A DNA stretch of 64,000 bases from the NCBI RefSeq assembly GCF_017901135.1, contig NZ_CP072801.1, positions 3,686,501-3,750,500 on the forward strand. The letters are read 5' to 3'. Of this stretch, positions 30,193-41,569 are shown in pieces (position 1 is the first letter of the stretch; each line of letters starts with the position of its first letter). The notes under the pieces were generated by a model that saw only the letters and a list, made by a program, of their open reading frames with translations, made no database searches and was not told where the DNA came from. Position numbers and translations under genes: made by a program. Origin of the DNA: Thiothrix litoralis. GTDB lineage: Bacteria > Pseudomonadota > Gammaproteobacteria > Thiotrichales > Thiotrichaceae.

Positions 30193-30447
30193 TTAATAAT
30201 GGTAGCGGCACATAGCGATCAGTAAATCCTCACCTTCCACCTTGTAGACCAAGCGATGTTCATCATTGATCCGTCGTGACCAATAGCCGGACAAGCCATG
30301 CCGCAACGGTTCGGGCTTACCGATACCCTCAAATGGCTCGCGGGAAATCGCCTTGATCAACTCATTGATGCGTTTCAGGATTTTCTTGTCGGCTTGCTGC
30401 CAGTACAGATAGTCTTCCCACGCTTTGGATGAAAAAACTATCCTCAT
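30193..30447 (-). CDS. yoeB: YoeB mRNA interferase toxin
   Basis: The 84-aa protein matches the E. coli YoeB length and motifs: the FSSKAWEDYLYWQQAD start, PFEGIGKPEPLRHGLSGYWSRRI with the catalytic glutamate/arginine region, and the terminal CRYHY with the active-site His-Tyr pair. It cuts mRNA on the ribosome. Its ATG lies in the 4-bp overlap with yefM, the normal antitoxin-first order. Confidence 0.95.
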   Translation of the reverse strand: MRIVFSSKAWEDYLYWQQADKKILKRINELIKAISREPFEGIGKPEPLRHGLSGYWSRRINDEHRLVYKVEGEDLLIAMCRYHY

Positions 30448-30695
30448 TCCAGCAACTCTCGCGCTTGCCCATTCCCACGCCCCAATTCAGCAATGGATTC
30501 CAGCAAGCGACTGGCATTAGCTGGGCTACGCAACAAATAGGCGGTTTCTTCCATCGCTTTGTAATCTTCCAACGAAATCATGACGACGGCTTGTTCGCGG
30601 TTGCGGGTAATGATGATGGGTTCGTGATCTTCGCAGACCCGATCCATCGTTTTGGCGAGTTCCGCTCGCACAGCGGTGTAGGAGATGGCGTTCAT
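30444..30695 (-). CDS. yefM: YefM antitoxin
   Basis: The 83-aa antitoxin has the Phd/YefM DNA-binding N-terminus (MNAISYTAVRAELAKTMDRV, helix-turn region) and DHEPIIITRNREQAVVMISLEDYKAMEETAYLL, where the last part leads into the toxin-binding tail. It neutralises YoeB and represses its own promoter. Putative operator repeats are 13-31 bp upstream of its start. Confidence 0.95.
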   Translation of the reverse strand: MNAISYTAVRAELAKTMDRVCEDHEPIIITRNREQAVVMISLEDYKAMEETAYLLRSPANASRLLESIAELGRGNGQARELLE

Positions 30696-32630: not shown

Positions 32631-32682
32631 AACCGCCCGTAAACACTCACCCATCCCCCTCTGATACCGGCAGGGGAGCTGT

Positions 32683-33017
32683 TGACATCCTCCTCGCCCT
32701 AAAGAACGAGGATTCCTCCTACGAGACGGCTATGCCCAGCCGCGAGAATGTTCCGTGCTGCATTGACATCTCTGTCGTGCAGCGTGCCACACTCGGCACA
32801 CGTCCATTCTCTTATTCCAAGTCCTGCTCTACCTTTCGGACTGCTGGCGGAAAGACTGCCGCAACACGAGCAAGCTTGGGTAGTGTACGCTTCGTCGACT
32901 TCCTCAAACACCTGTTTTTGATCTTGGCATGAATCGCTTTCACGCGCTTTTTCTGTTTGGCGCGTTGGGCAATGCCTAGCTTTGCTTCGAGGTTGCGGTA
33001 GAAATCACCGCGCTCCA
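32683..33017 (-). mobile_element. Right-end fragment of an IS605-type element with deleted tnpB
   Basis: TTGACATCCTCCTCGCCC at 32683 opens a right end identical in type to those at 41063 and 51871. The tnpB remnant has a zinc-ribbon C-terminus (CSCCGS, CAEC, HDRDVNAARN) joined out of frame to an upstream segment (LERGD..AKIKN) by a deletion that removed the RuvC glutamate region. The same joint is in the 41063-41569 element. The left end is missing: identity to that element stops at 33017, where deacetylase sequence begins. Confidence 0.85.
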
Positions 33018-34818: not shown

Positions 34819-35520
34819 TCAAATCGCGATATAGCGCCAGCCGTTGCGCATGTGATCGACCACAAATTCCACCGCTGACGGGGCAATTTCTGTCTCGTCG
34901 ACCAGCGATACCAGCTCCCCGCGTTGCTTGAAGGAATACAAGGTATTACTGCACGCCACAAATTTCAGGTGCGGGTATTCTTCGCTCATTTGCAGGATGC
35001 GGCCTTCGTGCTTGGTTGTCCCCAGCCGCAGTAAGTCGATGCCTTCCGCACTGGTGACGACAAAAACGCTGCCGTCATTATGCTCGACCTGTTTGGCGAG
35101 GTCTTCGGCTTTTATCAGGGCTTTCTCCAGTTTGGCAGGTTCATGCGAGTCGAGGAATACGATGAAACGGTTGTCGTGTGCCGCTGCATTTTCCAGCGTC
35201 AAGCCTTCGGGTTGCCACAGGCGTGGCAGGTATTCAGTCGTGCCTGCCCCGGCGAGGAAGGTCAGGCCGAATACCAGTGCGTATACGGCTGCCTGTTGCC
35301 ACACTTGCGGACGCTGGCGTTGTTTGCTCATGCTGCTCATGGCGGGCAAGGGGTAGGCGGATTTGATCAAGTGTTTGATGCGCTGGATGTCGCACAGCTC
35401 TTTTTGCAAGCCAATATCGGCTTCTACTTGGGTAAGCACGCGGCGGCTTTGTTCGGCATCCAGTTGTCCATCTGCCAGTGCGTGCAGGCGGTCGTGGATG
35501 GTTAGCTGATCCGGGTTCAT
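34819..35520 (-). CDS. Anti-sigma-like membrane protein with C-terminal DsrE-like domain
   Basis: The 233-aa protein has an N-terminal anti-sigma-like domain (HDRLHALADGQLDAEQSRRVL, a pattern of RsiW/NrsF-type and FecR-like anti-sigma heads), a single membrane helix at about residues 76-93, and a C-terminal domain of about 110 residues with DsrE-family features: FIVFLDSHEPAKLEKALIKA, VFVVTSAEGIDLL, LKFVACSNTLYSFK and a closing NGWRYIAI. The cysteine of VACSNTL matches the usual DsrE CxNT position. It overlaps the sigma gene by ATGA. If the first half is cytosolic the DsrE domain would be periplasmic. Confidence 0.7.
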   Translation of the reverse strand: MNPDQLTIHDRLHALADGQLDAEQSRRVLTQVEADIGLQKELCDIQRIKHLIKSAYPLPAMSSMSKQRQRPQVWQQAAVYALVFGLTFLAGAGTTEYLPRLWQPEGLTLENAAAHDNRFIVFLDSHEPAKLEKALIKAEDLAKQVEHNDGSVFVVTSAEGIDLLRLGTTKHEGRILQMSEEYPHLKFVACSNTLYSFKQRGELVSLVDETEIAPSAVEFVVDHMRNGWRYIAI

Positions 35521-36056
35521 TTCACTCTCCGTAAATAGTGAACGTTGTCAGTGTTGCGTATGCCTTGCAGGCGTTTTTTCATGGTGTCACGGGCGCGGCT
35601 GAGGCGGCTCATCACCGTGCCGACGGGTATGTCTAGGATTGCAGCGACCTGTTCATAGCTGCATCCTTCCAGATCAACCAAGGTCATCACCTGACATTGA
35701 CCGATGGGTAAGGTTTCTACCGCTGCGCGTACTTGTTCGGCTAGTTGGTCATCGGCCAGTTGCTTTTCCGGGCAGTCGGTGCAAGCCACTTCCATGTCGT
35801 CGATGTCCAGCGTGGGCTTTTGGGTGCGCAGGTGTTCCATCCAGCAGTTATGCAGGATTTTGTATAACCAGGCGCCAAGGCGCTCGTCGTCCTTGAGCTG
35901 TTCCTGTTTTTCCAGCGCTTTGGCGAGTGCATCCTGCACCAGATCGTCAGCTAACACCGGGTCGCCACACCACGCCACCGCCATGCGGTACAGTTTGGCG
36001 CGGTATTCTGCTAACCTGTGGTCGAGTCGGTTAAAACGAAAATAATGGCTAAACAT
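35517..36056 (-). CDS. ECF sigma factor (sigma-70 family)
   Basis: The 179-aa protein has sigma region 2 (DDLVQDALAKALEK and LGAWLYKILHNCWMEHLR, about residues 37-81) and region 4 (LPIGQCQVMTLVDLEGCSYEQVAAIL..GTVMSRLSRAR, about 116-152), with no other domain, as in ECF factors. A DIDDMEVACTDCPEK linker has two cysteines. Its gene overlaps the anti-sigma-like gene by 4 bp, so the two are co-translated. It is divergent from soxB, which is a natural target candidate. The ribosome site before the ATG is poor. Confidence 0.88.
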   Translation of the reverse strand: MFSHYFRFNRLDHRLAEYRAKLYRMAVAWCGDPVLADDLVQDALAKALEKQEQLKDDERLGAWLYKILHNCWMEHLRTQKPTLDIDDMEVACTDCPEKQLADDQLAEQVRAAVETLPIGQCQVMTLVDLEGCSYEQVAAILDIPVGTVMSRLSRARDTMKKRLQGIRNTDNVHYLRRVK

Positions 36057-36110
36057 AATAGTTATTTAAATTCTCCTGCGGTTCTGTCGAACATGATGCC
36101 GAAAACCTGC

Positions 36111-36139
36111 AAAATATTCCAAAAAAGATGGAATATTTT
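36111..36139. promoter_or_regulatory. 11-bp dyad between the sigma gene and soxB
   Basis: AAAATATTCCA and TGGAATATTTT form a perfect inverted repeat with a 7-nt spacer, centred 78 bp before the soxB GTG and 69 bp before the sigma gene. No T-run beyond the stem suggests an operator. Confidence 0.45.
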
Positions 36140-36202
36140 AGCGGCTGCCCCGTCAGTAAACCTGTAGCGAGAACAACTTCAGCCCGTTTGAGGAGAGAGA
36201 AC

Positions 36203-37951
36203 GTGAGTCTAACCCGTCGTGAATTTATGCAAATGCTGGCGGCCGCCAGTGTTGCCGGTTTCAGCCTGAATAATGCCTTTGCTGCCGATGGTGCCAGCAA
36301 GGAAGGCAGTAAAACCGATACCAAAGCCCCCGGTAATCCCTATGAACTGCCTGCATTCGGCAATGTATCGCTGATGCATTACACCGACTGTCATGCACAG
36401 TTGATGCCGATTTATTTCCGTGAACCCAGCGTCAATCTTGGTCTTGGCAGTATGAAAGGCCAGGTACCACATTTGGTTGGCGAACACTTCCTGAAAAAGT
36501 ACGGTCTTGAGGCCGGAACGATGGATGCGCACGCCTTTACCTATCTGGATTACGTCGAAGCCGCTAAAAAATACGGTAAGGTTGGCGGGTTTGCTCACCT
36601 GAAAACCTTGGTTGATCAAGTACGGGCGCAACGCCCCGGCTCGCTGTTGCTGGACGGCGGTGATACTTGGCAAGGTTCGTGGACGGCGCTGAAAACCAAT
36701 GCGCAAGACATGGTAGACGCCCAGCTTGCCCTCGGTGTCGATGTCATGACTCCGCACTGGGAAATGACTTTCGGCGCTGACCGCGTAAAAGAAATCGTCG
36801 AGAAGGATTTCGCGGGCAAGATTGATTTTGTTGCCCAGAACGTCTTCAGTAATGACTTTGACGAGCGTGTGTTTGAACCGTTCGTGATCAAGGAAATCAA
36901 CGGTGTGCCGGTGGCCATTGTCGGGCAAGCCTTCCCGTATGTGCCGGTTGCCAACCCGAAACACATGGTGGCTGACTGGAGCTTCGGTATCCGTGACGAT
37001 GACATGCAGGAAGCGGTGGATGCTGCCCGTGCCAAGGGTGCCAAAGTCGTGATCGTGCTGTCCCACAACGGTATGGACGTTGACCTGAAAATGGCCAGCA
37101 AAGTCACCGGCATCGACGCGATCATGGGCGGTCACACCCACGACGGCGTGTTCCAACCAGTAGTCGTGGAAAACAGTGGCGGTAAAACACTGGTAACCAA
37201 TGCCGGTTCCAACGGTAAATTCCTCGGTGTCCTCGACCTTGATGTGAAAGATGGCAAAGTTGCTGATTTCCGTTACAAATTGCTGCCAGTGTTCTCCAAC
37301 CTGCTGGAAGCCAACAAGGACATGCAAACGCTGATCGACAAGATCCGCGAACCGTACAAGAAAGAGCTGGCGGAAGAACTCGCTGTATGTGACGACGTGC
37401 TGTACCGTCGTGGCAACTTCAACGGTACGTTCGACCAATTGATCTGTGACGCGCTGATGGAAGGGTTGGATGCGCCGATGGCGTTCTCACCGGGGTTCCG
37501 TTGGGGCACAAGCGTGCTGCCGGGTCAGCCAATCACTTTTGAACACGTTGCTGACCAAACGGCGATCACTTACGGCACGGTCACGCGCAACGAGATGAGT
37601 GGTGAAATGATCAAAACCATCCTCGAAGACGTGGCGGATAATCTGTTCAATGAAGACCCTTACTACCAGCAAGGGGGGGACATGGTGCGGGTTGGTGGCT
37701 TGAAGTTCAGCTTTGACCCTACTGCGAAGATGGGGCAGCGTGTTTCTGACATGGAATTGGGCGGAAAACCGTTGGATGCAGCAAAAACCTACCCAGTAGC
37801 GGGTTGGGCAAGCGTGCAGGAAGAAGTGCCTGAGAATAAGCAGATTTGGGAAGTGGTCGCGGATTACCTGCGTAGCAAAAAGACCATTGGCAAAATTGAG
37901 TTGAATACCCCGAAACTGAAAAACGTCGAGGGCAACGAAGGTTTGGCTTAA
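36203..37951 (+). CDS. soxB: Thiosulfohydrolase SoxB
   Basis: SoxB hydrolyses the sulfate group from the thiosulfate-SoxY conjugate in the periplasm, with a dimanganese site. The 582-aa protein starts at the GTG at 36203 (GAGGAGAGAGA upstream), giving a Tat signal with the twin arginines in SLTRREFMQML. Metal motifs are HYTDCHAQ (about residue 58), GGDTWQGS (about 150), VLSHNGMDVD (about 284) and GGHTHDG (about 308). It stands apart from other sox genes; only the sigma/anti-sigma pair is divergent beside it. Confidence 0.95.
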   Translation: MSLTRREFMQMLAAASVAGFSLNNAFAADGASKEGSKTDTKAPGNPYELPAFGNVSLMHYTDCHAQLMPIYFREPSVNLGLGSMKGQVPHLVGEHFLKKYGLEAGTMDAHAFTYLDYVEAAKKYGKVGGFAHLKTLVDQVRAQRPGSLLLDGGDTWQGSWTALKTNAQDMVDAQLALGVDVMTPHWEMTFGADRVKEIVEKDFAGKIDFVAQNVFSNDFDERVFEPFVIKEINGVPVAIVGQAFPYVPVANPKHMVADWSFGIRDDDMQEAVDAARAKGAKVVIVLSHNGMDVDLKMASKVTGIDAIMGGHTHDGVFQPVVVENSGGKTLVTNAGSNGKFLGVLDLDVKDGKVADFRYKLLPVFSNLLEANKDMQTLIDKIREPYKKELAEELAVCDDVLYRRGNFNGTFDQLICDALMEGLDAPMAFSPGFRWGTSVLPGQPITFEHVADQTAITYGTVTRNEMSGEMIKTILEDVADNLFNEDPYYQQGGDMVRVGGLKFSFDPTAKMGQRVSDMELGGKPLDAAKTYPVAGWASVQEEVPENKQIWEVVADYLRSKKTIGKIELNTPKLKNVEGNEGLA

Positions 37952-39461: not shown

Positions 39462-41066
39462 ATGAAACAACAGACACTGGCATTCTTGATTGCAGCCTCC
39501 CTGACACTGGCAACCCAGCAAGTTCAGGCGGAAAACCTGCTTCAGGTTTACCAACAGGCAAAAGGCTACGATGCCCAATTTAAAGCAGTGGAAAGCAATT
39601 ATCTTTCGATTCTGGAACGCAAGCCCCAAGCGTTGGCAGCCCTCAAGCCGCAAGTGGGGCTTTCCGGCTCCATTACCGAAACCCGCCAGCGGATTACCTA
39701 TGATTATTCGTTGCTTGACACGGATGGCGTTGCTAATGGTAGTAGCGCCACTTATAGCCTGAGTTTGAGCAAATCCCTGTACAATAAAACGCTGAATGAG
39801 CAAGTCAAGCAGACTGATTCCATCATTGCCCAAGCCAGTTCAGAACTGGAGGCCGAACGCGAAGCCTTGGTCTTACGGGTAGGAGAAGCCTACTTCAATT
39901 TCCTATTGGCGCAGGATAACCTAGAGTTTGCCCGTACCGAGAAAACCGCGATCGGTCGCCAACTGGAACAGACCCGTGCGTATTTTGATGCAGGCCGTTC
40001 CGCCATCACCGATGTCAAGGAAGCAGAATCCCGTTATGACCTCGCGGGTGCACAAGAAATCAATGCCGTGAACCAGCTTGATCTGACGCGGGAACAGTTA
40101 CGGGTACTGACCGGCGGTTTCTACCAGAGCCTGAATGCCCCGGCTGCCAACTTGCCACTGGTTATGCCGACTCCGGCAGATATTGAGCAATGGGTTAAAA
40201 CGGCCAAGGCCAACAACAAGCAACTGATTGCCAGCCAATATGCTATCCAGTCAGCACAGACGGCCATCGACATCCAGCGTGCTACCAAAAAACCGGTGGT
40301 GGATCTGGTGGCCAAGCAAACGGGCAGTGACACTCAAAGTTATGCATCGCTTGACCAGCGATACTATGGTGTCAGCGTTGGGGTGCAGGTGAGTATGCCC
40401 TTGTACACAGGTGGCGCGACGGACTCCAAAATCCGCGCCGCCCAACACAGTTTCCGTCAGGCACAACAGGAATATGACTTCCAGAACCGCACCACTGAGC
40501 AACAAGCGCGTAATGCCTTCCTCACGGTGCAGTCCAGCATCAGTCAGGTAAAAGCCAACCAACGCGCCCTTGCTTCGGCGGAAACCGCTGCTGAAGCGAC
40601 TCAGGCAGGTTTTGAGGTGGGGACACGTACCGCCGTTGACGTGCTGACTGCCTTGCGCAATGTGTTCAGTGCGCGTCGTGACTATGCACAGACCCGTTAC
40701 ACCTACTTGTTGAATACCCTGAAACTGCGCCAGGCAGCGGGTACGTTGTCCGATCAGGACATTGTGACGATGAACACTGTCATGACCACGACGCCAAAGC
40801 AATTGGCAGCAGCTTTGCAGCCCAGCGCTCCACCCGCAGATCTGGAGGACAATGGCAGTTTTGAACGCTACAGTGCTGTGCCGACCAATAAGGATGACAT
40901 GAAAAGCACGCAGCCTGAGCCTGCTGTTGCCGATAAAGCGATGCCAGAAACAGCGCCAGTGAAGCAAGCTGCACCAAAGGCACAAGCCAAGCCAGCACCT
41001 GTCCAGCAGCCCAAGGCTGACGCGCCGCAATACTTCATTATCCCCAAGGATGTTGGCAAGTATTGA
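39462..41066 (+). CDS. tolC: TolC-family outer membrane efflux protein
   Basis: The 534-aa protein has a signal peptide (LAFLIAASLTLATQQVQA), two structural repeats of the OEP fold (AQFKAVESNYLSILER and QASSELEAEREALVLRVGEAYFN in repeat 1; GVSVGVQVSMPLYTGGATDS and RNAFLTVQSSISQV in repeat 2) and a Pro/Ala/Lys-rich tail after about residue 445. It is the outer channel for type I secretion and efflux. Its TGA stop at 41064-41066 lies inside the 5-bp terminus of the IS605-type element at 41063, so the native C-terminus may be longer. Confidence 0.92.
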   Translation: MKQQTLAFLIAASLTLATQQVQAENLLQVYQQAKGYDAQFKAVESNYLSILERKPQALAALKPQVGLSGSITETRQRITYDYSLLDTDGVANGSSATYSLSLSKSLYNKTLNEQVKQTDSIIAQASSELEAEREALVLRVGEAYFNFLLAQDNLEFARTEKTAIGRQLEQTRAYFDAGRSAITDVKEAESRYDLAGAQEINAVNQLDLTREQLRVLTGGFYQSLNAPAANLPLVMPTPADIEQWVKTAKANNKQLIASQYAIQSAQTAIDIQRATKKPVVDLVAKQTGSDTQSYASLDQRYYGVSVGVQVSMPLYTGGATDSKIRAAQHSFRQAQQEYDFQNRTTEQQARNAFLTVQSSISQVKANQRALASAETAAEATQAGFEVGTRTAVDVLTALRNVFSARRDYAQTRYTYLLNTLKLRQAAGTLSDQDIVTMNTVMTTTPKQLAAALQPSAPPADLEDNGSFERYSAVPTNKDDMKSTQPEPAVADKAMPETAPVKQAAPKAQAKPAPVQQPKADAPQYFIIPKDVGKY

Positions 41067-41569
41067 CATCCTCCTCGCCCTAAAGAACGAGGATTCCTCC
41101 TACGAGACGGCTATGCCCAGCCGCGAGAATGTTCCGTGCTGCATTGACATCTCTGTCGTGCAGCGTGCCACACTCGGCACAAATCCATTCTCTTATTCCA
41201 AGTCCTGCTCTACCTTTCGGGCTGCTGGCGGAAATACTGCCGCCACACGAACAGGCTTGGGTAGTGTACGCTTCGTCGATTTCCTCAAACACCTGTTTTT
41301 GATCTTGGCATGAATCGCTTTCACGCGCTTTTTCTGTTTGGCGCGTTGGGCAATGCCTAACTTTGCTTCGAGGTTGCGGTAGAAATCACCGCGCTCCAGC
41401 TTGTCGCCATTGCTGCACGTCATAGAACACCATTCAGCGGTTTCCGCAATGACCCGTTTAGGTGTGAATGACAACGGGAAAACCGTATGAAAGGTGGGAG
41501 ATACGCCACCAACGGATAGGTTAGCTAAAGACGCTTATATCCCCGACCTGAAGGACGGAGCTTTACGCG
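41063..41569 (-). mobile_element. Deleted IS605-type element, 507 bp, both ends intact
   Basis: The right end reads TTGACATCCTCCTCGCCC at 41063 and the left-end hairpin is at 41532-41569 (CCCCGACCTGAAGGACGGAG core). Between them is only a relic tnpB: an upstream segment (LERGDFYRNLEAKLG, AKIKN) joined out of frame to the zinc-ribbon end, as in the 32683 fragment. The N-terminal half of the gene is also lost. With complete ends and no coding capacity it is a non-autonomous (MITE-like) unit that could be moved in trans. Confidence 0.85.

Follow-up and report, generated by a model that had tools for sequence, protein, structure and literature searches.

How do the regulators of sulfur oxidation sense sulfur outside the cell? 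As late as 2024 this was called poorly understood (PMC11582611). A locus of Thiothrix litoralis, in which a sigma factor gene and a gene for an unusual membrane protein face soxB, bears on this question. We analyzed a stretch of 64,000 nucleotides around this locus (the window) from a genome of 4.28 Mb in a single contig.

An ECF sigma factor gene and its partner diverge from soxB

The open reading frames listed for the window contain an ECF sigma factor gene and, overlapping it by 4 nt, a gene whose product joins an anti-sigma-like head to a DsrE-type domain (the fusion protein); soxB lies on the forward strand, divergent from this pair (Table 1). This is the arrangement given in the first-pass annotation, and the reading frames and the match of soxB to TIGR04486 (E = 4.8e-260 in NCBIfam) bear it out, coordinates included. 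The start of soxB is probably GTG 36203 rather than ATG 36128; the GTG and a GAGGAGAG-type ribosome-binding site are kept in 15 aligned genus genomes, and the ATG overlaps the dyad described below. The fusion protein is 91% identical in T. lacustris, 81% in T. caldifontis and 79% in T. fructosivorans.

Table 1. Features of the sigma-fusion and soxB locus (positions in the window)
Feature	Coordinates	Strand	Basis
Anti-sigma-like membrane protein ending in a DsrE-type domain, 233 aa	34819..35520	-	ORF; genus orthologues 15/16; family matches among relatives
DsrE-type domain, residues 116-233, presumably periplasmic	34822..35175	-	profile to solved structures; PF02635 in 20/37 relatives; fold comparison
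Codon of Cys190, sole cysteine of the C-terminal domain	34951..34953	-	invariant in relatives
Likely membrane helix, residues 77-95, N-side cytoplasmic	35236..35292	-	hydropathy; basic N-flank; helix 72-89 in low-confidence model
Anti-sigma-like head, about residues 1-60 (LHALADGQLDAEQ...)	35341..35520	-	zf-HC2 below cut-off; NF052375 in relatives; D17 invariant
ECF sigma factor, 179 aa	35517..36056	-	PF04542 and PF08281; TIGR02937
Predicted sigma-fusion promoter: GGAATA (36120-36115), N16, CATC (36098-36095)	36095..36120	-	14/15 genus genomes, 30/36 distant loci
11-bp dyad, read as two back-to-back -35 regions	36111..36139		alignment and motif scan
Predicted soxB promoter: GGAATA (36130-36135), N15, CGTC (36151-36154)	36130..36154	+	15/15 genus genomes
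soxB, thiosulfohydrolase	36203..37951	+	TIGR04486; conserved start

The fusion protein is predicted to span the membrane

The head of the window protein matches zf-HC2 in Pfam at E = 0.051, below the cut-off. Among its relatives, 24 of 37 match the family NF052375 “anti-sigma factor” at E ≤ 1 (best 1.7e-4), and residue D17 of the head is invariant (37/37). Behind the head lies a probable membrane helix of modest hydropathy, with a 19-residue mean of 1.57 in the window protein and values above the threshold of 1.6 in 33 of 51 proteins. The more basic flank of this helix is the N side in every one of the 51 proteins, and the DsrE domain is therefore placed in the periplasm, the location that had been suggested for it at first pass. 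The accompanying description of an anti-sigma-like head and a single membrane helix draws support from the NF052375 matches of the relatives and from hydropathy and charge, but the zf-HC2 match remains below the cut-off and the helix is not a strong one.

AlphaFold models were built from four sequences, the window protein and those of loci L016-L018. The full-length model is poor (mean pLDDT 54.1) and gave no Foldseek match at E ≤ 0.001, and only a model of the C-terminal domain was used for fold comparison. A search of plasmids with the fusion protein returned one weak partial match only.

The C-terminal half resembles DsrE proteins and carries a lone cysteine

The assignment of the C-terminal half to the DsrE family had been made from three motifs (FIVFLDSH, VACSNTL and NGWRYIAI), all of which are present. 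Searched alone, the window protein has no match to PF02635 in Pfam at E ≤ 10 and no DsrE match in NCBIfam. Against solved structures, phmmer finds one match, MTH1491 (1l1s, titled “hypothetical protein”), with E = 0.0014 for the whole protein and 0.00097 for the C-terminal domain. A profile of the 37 relatives matches the same structure at 6.6e-17, and also 2pd2 at 1.2e-10 and 8uja, titled “engineered DrsE like sulfur reductase”, at 4.4e-9; PF02635 itself is matched by 20 of the 37 full-length relatives at E ≤ 1 (best 2.1e-8). A standalone DsrE-like relative in another Thiothrix genome (G003), over the cut-off for PF02635, aligns with the domain profile at E = 2.5e-18. The profile showed no similarity to one DsrE-like protein of the window's own genome (E = 0.09), for which a single-sequence template may be too weak.

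Fold comparison points the same way. The model of the C-terminal domain, again from four sequences, is of modest confidence (mean pLDDT 66.4), and VIA-align ranks 1l1s first (Z 12.2). The top ten entries, from Z 12.2 to 8.3, are 1l1s, 8uja, 2pd2, 2fb6, 2qs7, 3mc3, 1jx7, 3pnx, 2d1p and 2hy5; DsrE/DsrF-like entries score 9.8 and 9.7, TusBCD 8.4 and DsrEFH 8.3, and the eleventh entry is unrelated (Z 7.0). We take 1l1s, 2pd2, 2fb6 and ychN to be DsrE-fold proteins. Foldseek with the same model is weaker, with 8uja as its single match at E ≤ 0.001. With the relatives included, profiles and modeled fold make a firm case that the C-terminal half is a DsrE-type domain; the original call stands on that wider evidence, but not on the window protein by itself, where PF02635 is missing. 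The motifs ACSNTL and GWxYI are common to MTH1491 and the fusion protein, as is the fold, which is shared more widely with DsrE/MTH1491-type proteins (PF02635; 1l1s and 2pd2; DsrEFH, 2hy5; TusBCD, 2d1p). Whereas those proteins are standalone and either act in sulfur transfer or are uncharacterized, the domain here follows an anti-sigma head and a membrane helix in one polypeptide.

Three residues of the domain, C190, W228 and Y230, are invariant in 37/37 proteins. The C-terminal 122 residues hold exactly one cysteine in each of these 37, always C190, and the C-terminal domains of the genus fusion proteins likewise hold one (15/15). Because there is one cysteine per domain, the domain cannot form an internal disulfide, but it could bear a persulfide or a thiosulfonate or take part in an intermolecular disulfide. 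The invariance of this lone residue suggests that chemistry takes place at C190, which by its position is the putative equivalent of the sulfur-binding cysteine of DsrE.

The sigma-fusion pair extends beyond the genus, its linkage to soxB does not

The fusion is present in 15 of 16 genus genomes, and sigma and soxB adjoin it in all 15 (in G009 the sigma factor aligned over its first 120 residues only). The remaining genome, G003, has no fusion; its soxB sits in a soxX-Y-Z-A-B run, next to genes for a standalone periplasmic DsrE protein and for a sulfur transporter. Beyond the genus, the fusion was matched in 6 of the 47 order genomes and in 68 of 369 genomes of a class sample. Among the matches listed from a sample of 397 genomes of the phylum, only those from the same class cover both the head and the DsrE domain.

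For a closer look at gene neighborhoods we used 40 regions from 36 genomes, picked among the best-scoring matches rather than from all of them. Six regions were dropped, one for a partial match (L186) and five (L188, L194, L197, L199 and L218) in which the gene was lost to the overlapping-frame filter. The 34 loci kept contain 36 full-length fusion genes, each with an ECF sigma gene upstream (36/36), so that the pairing seen in 15/15 genus genomes with the fusion extends to distant relatives. By contrast, soxB was near the fusion in 0 of the 40 loci outside the genus. Unlinking of the fusion and soxB in relatives, which the first-pass annotation had named as refuting its reading, is thus seen at the family and class level but not within Thiothrix (15 of 16 genomes linked). 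SoxY was found in 22 of 25 class genomes with a verified fusion (a number that leaves out five class genomes whose loci had been dropped) versus 190 of 368 overall, a difference with a Fisher p of 1.1e-4 before any correction for relatedness.

Other genes recur near the fusion. A standalone DsrE-like gene is found in 26 of the 34 loci and a porin-like gene in 21. The porin-like protein, recurrent outside Thiothrix (for example, L220:5191-6564(-)), is about 460 aa long, has no Pfam match and has a sub-cut-off match to the selenite/tellurite porin ExtI; it may form a channel in the outer membrane through which a sulfur compound passes. Within sox clusters of the genus there are also genes for standalone secreted DsrE-like proteins (PF02635), one next to a sulfur transporter gene (L034:3252-3731(-)) and one next to genes for a metallo-beta-lactamase and a DUF4395 protein (L110:12638-13147(+)). 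Two tandem sigma-fusion pairs lie side by side in each of two genomes (L205 and L210), which suggests duplication and perhaps two signals.

A shared predicted promoter motif precedes the sigma gene, soxB and soxYZ

Between the sigma gene and soxB lies an exact 11-bp dyad (AAAATATTCCA at 36111-36121 and TGGAATATTTT at 36129-36139, 7 nt apart), and in the genus intergenic alignment both of its arms persist amid changing surroundings. Each arm carries a GGAATA box. Toward soxB the pattern GGAATA-N15-CGTC is found in 15/15 genus genomes and is the only match in the window, where 0.22 would be expected. Toward the sigma gene, GGAATA-N16-C[AG]TC is found in 14 of 15, with N15 in G011 and none in G009.

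The motif also recurs at the distant loci. In a first test, GGAA-N15..18-CGTC matched 22 of 36 distant loci versus a mean of 1.42 and a maximum of 5 in 200 mononucleotide shuffles, and all 22 matches read GGAATA. A CATC variant was added after most loci without CGTC showed it, and the resulting counts for GGAATA-N15/16-C[AG]TC are therefore partly post hoc: 30 of 36 loci have it toward sigma, 17 on the divergent side and 32 in any direction, compared with means of 0.04, 0.06 and 0.1 (maximum 2 for any direction) in 300 dinucleotide shuffles. Four of the 36 loci have no match in any direction, and elsewhere in the same loci the motif occurs 15 times in 501 kb. Where it faces both ways (n = 15), the boxes lie 9 to 269 nt apart, and a fixed dyad is therefore not kept. 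Read most simply, the Thiothrix dyad would be two divergent ECF -35 boxes lying back to back by chance, and not a separate operator. The dyad of the first-pass annotation is thus exact, but it is better read as two ECF -35 elements. As placed, the two divergent promoters would be unlikely both to be active at the same time on a single DNA molecule.

Which other genes carry the motif? A strict pattern, GGAATATTN{13,14}CGTC, has two matches in the window's genome, one before soxB and one before a soxY 0.5 Mb away; the reversed control has none. Across the genus it gives 39 sites versus 8 for the reversed control, of which 23 precede soxB, sigma or soxY and 16 are elsewhere. The relaxed pattern GGAATAN{15,16}CGTC was set aside as too loose for genome-wide use (17 sites versus 10 reversed controls, a mild enrichment). 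A test of intergenic placement was also non-discriminating because the true soxB and soxY sites themselves lie within long stop-free frames.

Twelve genus genomes have the motif 36 to 110 nt upstream of a soxY that belongs to a soxYZ operon. In G011 it lies before a tsuA-like ORF, the first of a tsuA-soxX-Y-Z-A-Y-Z run, at a distance of 72 nt by ORF positions (384 when counted from the aligned part). SoxY had no match over the cut-off in G006 and G010. Counting G011, the motif precedes both soxB and soxYZ in 13 of 13 testable genus genomes. The site at soxY is a solitary half-site with the same -10. Only one of two soxY copies has the motif, the second copy being without it, and it was not seen at the soxX and soxA starts in the genus scan of sox genes. 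In G003, without sigma and fusion, the motif is absent from 18 kb around the sox genes. The regulatory link between the pair and the sox genes that had been proposed from position and dyad is thus supported by a conserved motif, as predicted promoters, before soxB and soxYZ. In the window's genome a DUF302 gene (PF03625; L263:994-1377(-)) has GGAATA-N16-CGTC 123 nt upstream and is a possible further target of the sigma factor.

The locus resembles ECF26 sulfite-response systems

The motif matches the published consensus of the sulfite-responsive SmRpoE4 and SnSigE promoters, with a -35 of GGAAT and a -10 of CGTC (PMC6527743), and the sigma factor presumably uses it. RpoE1 and RpoE4 belong to ECF26, and their autoregulation has been shown (PMC3511301). 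Relatives of the sigma factor on plasmids are about 40% identical; of five such regions, two are RpoE1-like with a DUF305 neighbor, two have no sulfur-gene neighbor and one is unannotated. A DUF305 gene also neighbors SnRpoE1 (PMC6527743). Since its ties to this group are the promoter consensus and the DUF305 neighbors of two of five plasmid relatives, we call the sigma factor ECF26-like, short of a proven ECF26 member.

The ECF26 sulfite-response pairs (RpoE4/SMc04050 and RpoE1/SMc01420 of Sinorhizobium meliloti, SigE and RpoE1 of Starkeya novella; PMC3511301, PMC6527743) share with this locus the order of an ECF sigma gene and then an anti-sigma gene, as well as the -35 GGAAT and -10 CGTC elements. 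They autoregulate, as the predicted promoter of the sigma-fusion operon would allow here, and their targets too act in periplasmic inorganic sulfur oxidation. However, those targets are sulfite dehydrogenases (sorT, sorAB) and not soxB and soxYZ, and the passages considered mention no DsrE domain in their anti-sigma proteins, whereas the fusion protein has one. In related alphaproteobacterial loci, three proteins in the anti-sigma position gave no DsrE match in Pfam at E ≤ 0.1.

More generally, surveyed anti-sigma factors bind sigma through an N-terminal domain, frequently have a membrane helix and end in a C-terminal accessory domain, a plan that the fusion protein shares; the main text of that survey contains the term DsrE 0 times. 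A limited search of the open-licence PMC literature found no description of a DsrE-fused anti-sigma factor, an apparent “DsrE” in PMC3511301 being DsRed. Relative to these papers, the new element is the DsrE domain, as putative sensor, on an anti-sigma protein. That reduced sulfur can govern the transcription of thiosulfate oxidation genes is itself known from Hyphomicrobium denitrificans, where sulfane-sulfur-responsive ArsR repressors, SoxR and sHdrR, work with SoxT importers (PMC10451225, PMC12423496, PMC11582611). Those repressors are cytoplasmic and require sulfur import, whereas a membrane anti-sigma protein would read periplasmic sulfur.

A periplasmic reactive-sulfur switch and its alternatives

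We propose, with a probability of roughly two in three, that a DsrE-ended anti-sigma protein keeps an ECF26-like sigma factor at the membrane and that this sigma factor is freed by reactive sulfur at the cysteine, and drives its own operon, soxB and soxYZ. The proposal builds on computed features, namely the domain make-up, the invariant cysteine, the linkage and the promoter motif with its target genes. In this scheme the fusion protein would inhibit the sigma factor and its periplasmic DsrE domain would act as the sensor. Reactive sulfur, perhaps persulfide or sulfane sulfur on Sox proteins, or sulfite, would react at C190; the anti-sigma head would then let go of the sigma factor, by conformational change or by proteolysis; and the freed sigma factor would transcribe the sigma-fusion operon, soxB and soxYZ from the GGAATA-N15/16-C[G/A]TC promoters. 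A bolder version, to which we give somewhat less than an even chance, is a transmembrane reactive-sulfur receptor in which C190 is persulfidated or sulfonated by sulfite, through Sox intermediates or through a standalone DsrE partner, and so frees the sigma factor; such receptors, with their GGAATA-N15/16-C[G/A]TC regulon, would form a class across sulfur-oxidizing Gammaproteobacteria that was rewired in Thiothrix for soxB and soxYZ.

The same switch could answer to another signal, with the DsrE domain as a docking or oligomerization module (for example, for a standalone periplasmic DsrE) or with thiosulfate, tetrathionate or a metal as the ligand. The standalone DsrE-like gene near the fusion in 26/34 loci could supply a partner that brings the signal, and among known relatives the response is to sulfite or tetrathionate (PMC6527743); the lone invariant cysteine in 37/37 domains nevertheless suggests chemistry at that residue, and we hold this reading to be unlikely, if worth keeping in mind. 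A further alternative is a role in sulfur stress or detoxification, like that known for sulfite, in which the sox genes would be incidental and expressed mainly from other promoters. Such a role would fit relatives whose sulfite oxidation is regulated as part of a stress response (PMC6527743) and the other genera, where DsrE and porin-like genes and not sox adjoin the pair, but it sits poorly with a motif that closely precedes soxB and soxYZ in all testable genus genomes (13/13, G011 included), and we consider it rather improbable.

The dyad might instead be the operator of another regulator, such as an ArsR-type SoxR, with the sigma-fusion pair a mere neighbor of soxB. It is perfect over 11 bp and conserved in the genus, and elsewhere sox genes are known to be repressed by a SoxR of the ArsR type (PMC10451225, PMC12423496). 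An operator of this kind is, however, hard to reconcile with a soxY half-site that stands alone with the same -10, with half-sites spaced 9 to 269 nt apart in the 15 distant two-sided loci, with a second box conserved at fixed spacing, and with the lack of the motif in the sox cluster of the genome that has no sigma gene (G003); we regard it as very improbable.

The reactive-sulfur switch would make this locus a testable answer to how external sulfur can be sensed without import, through a single-cysteine DsrE domain of a membrane anti-sigma protein facing the periplasm; if it is true, the receptor reads periplasmic sulfur directly, with no import step. For testing it supplies a sharp promoter motif, a set of target genes and a site for point mutation (C190), and its relevance would extend beyond Thiothrix to many sampled sulfur-oxidizing Gammaproteobacteria.

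Other features of the window

A gene pair for a YoeB-type toxin and a Phd/YefM antitoxin lies at 30193-30695(-). Two direct copies of 300 nt, 97% identical and 8.4 kb apart (32682-32981 and 41063-41362), flank the sigma-soxB region and are probably a mobile-element remnant or a small repeat.
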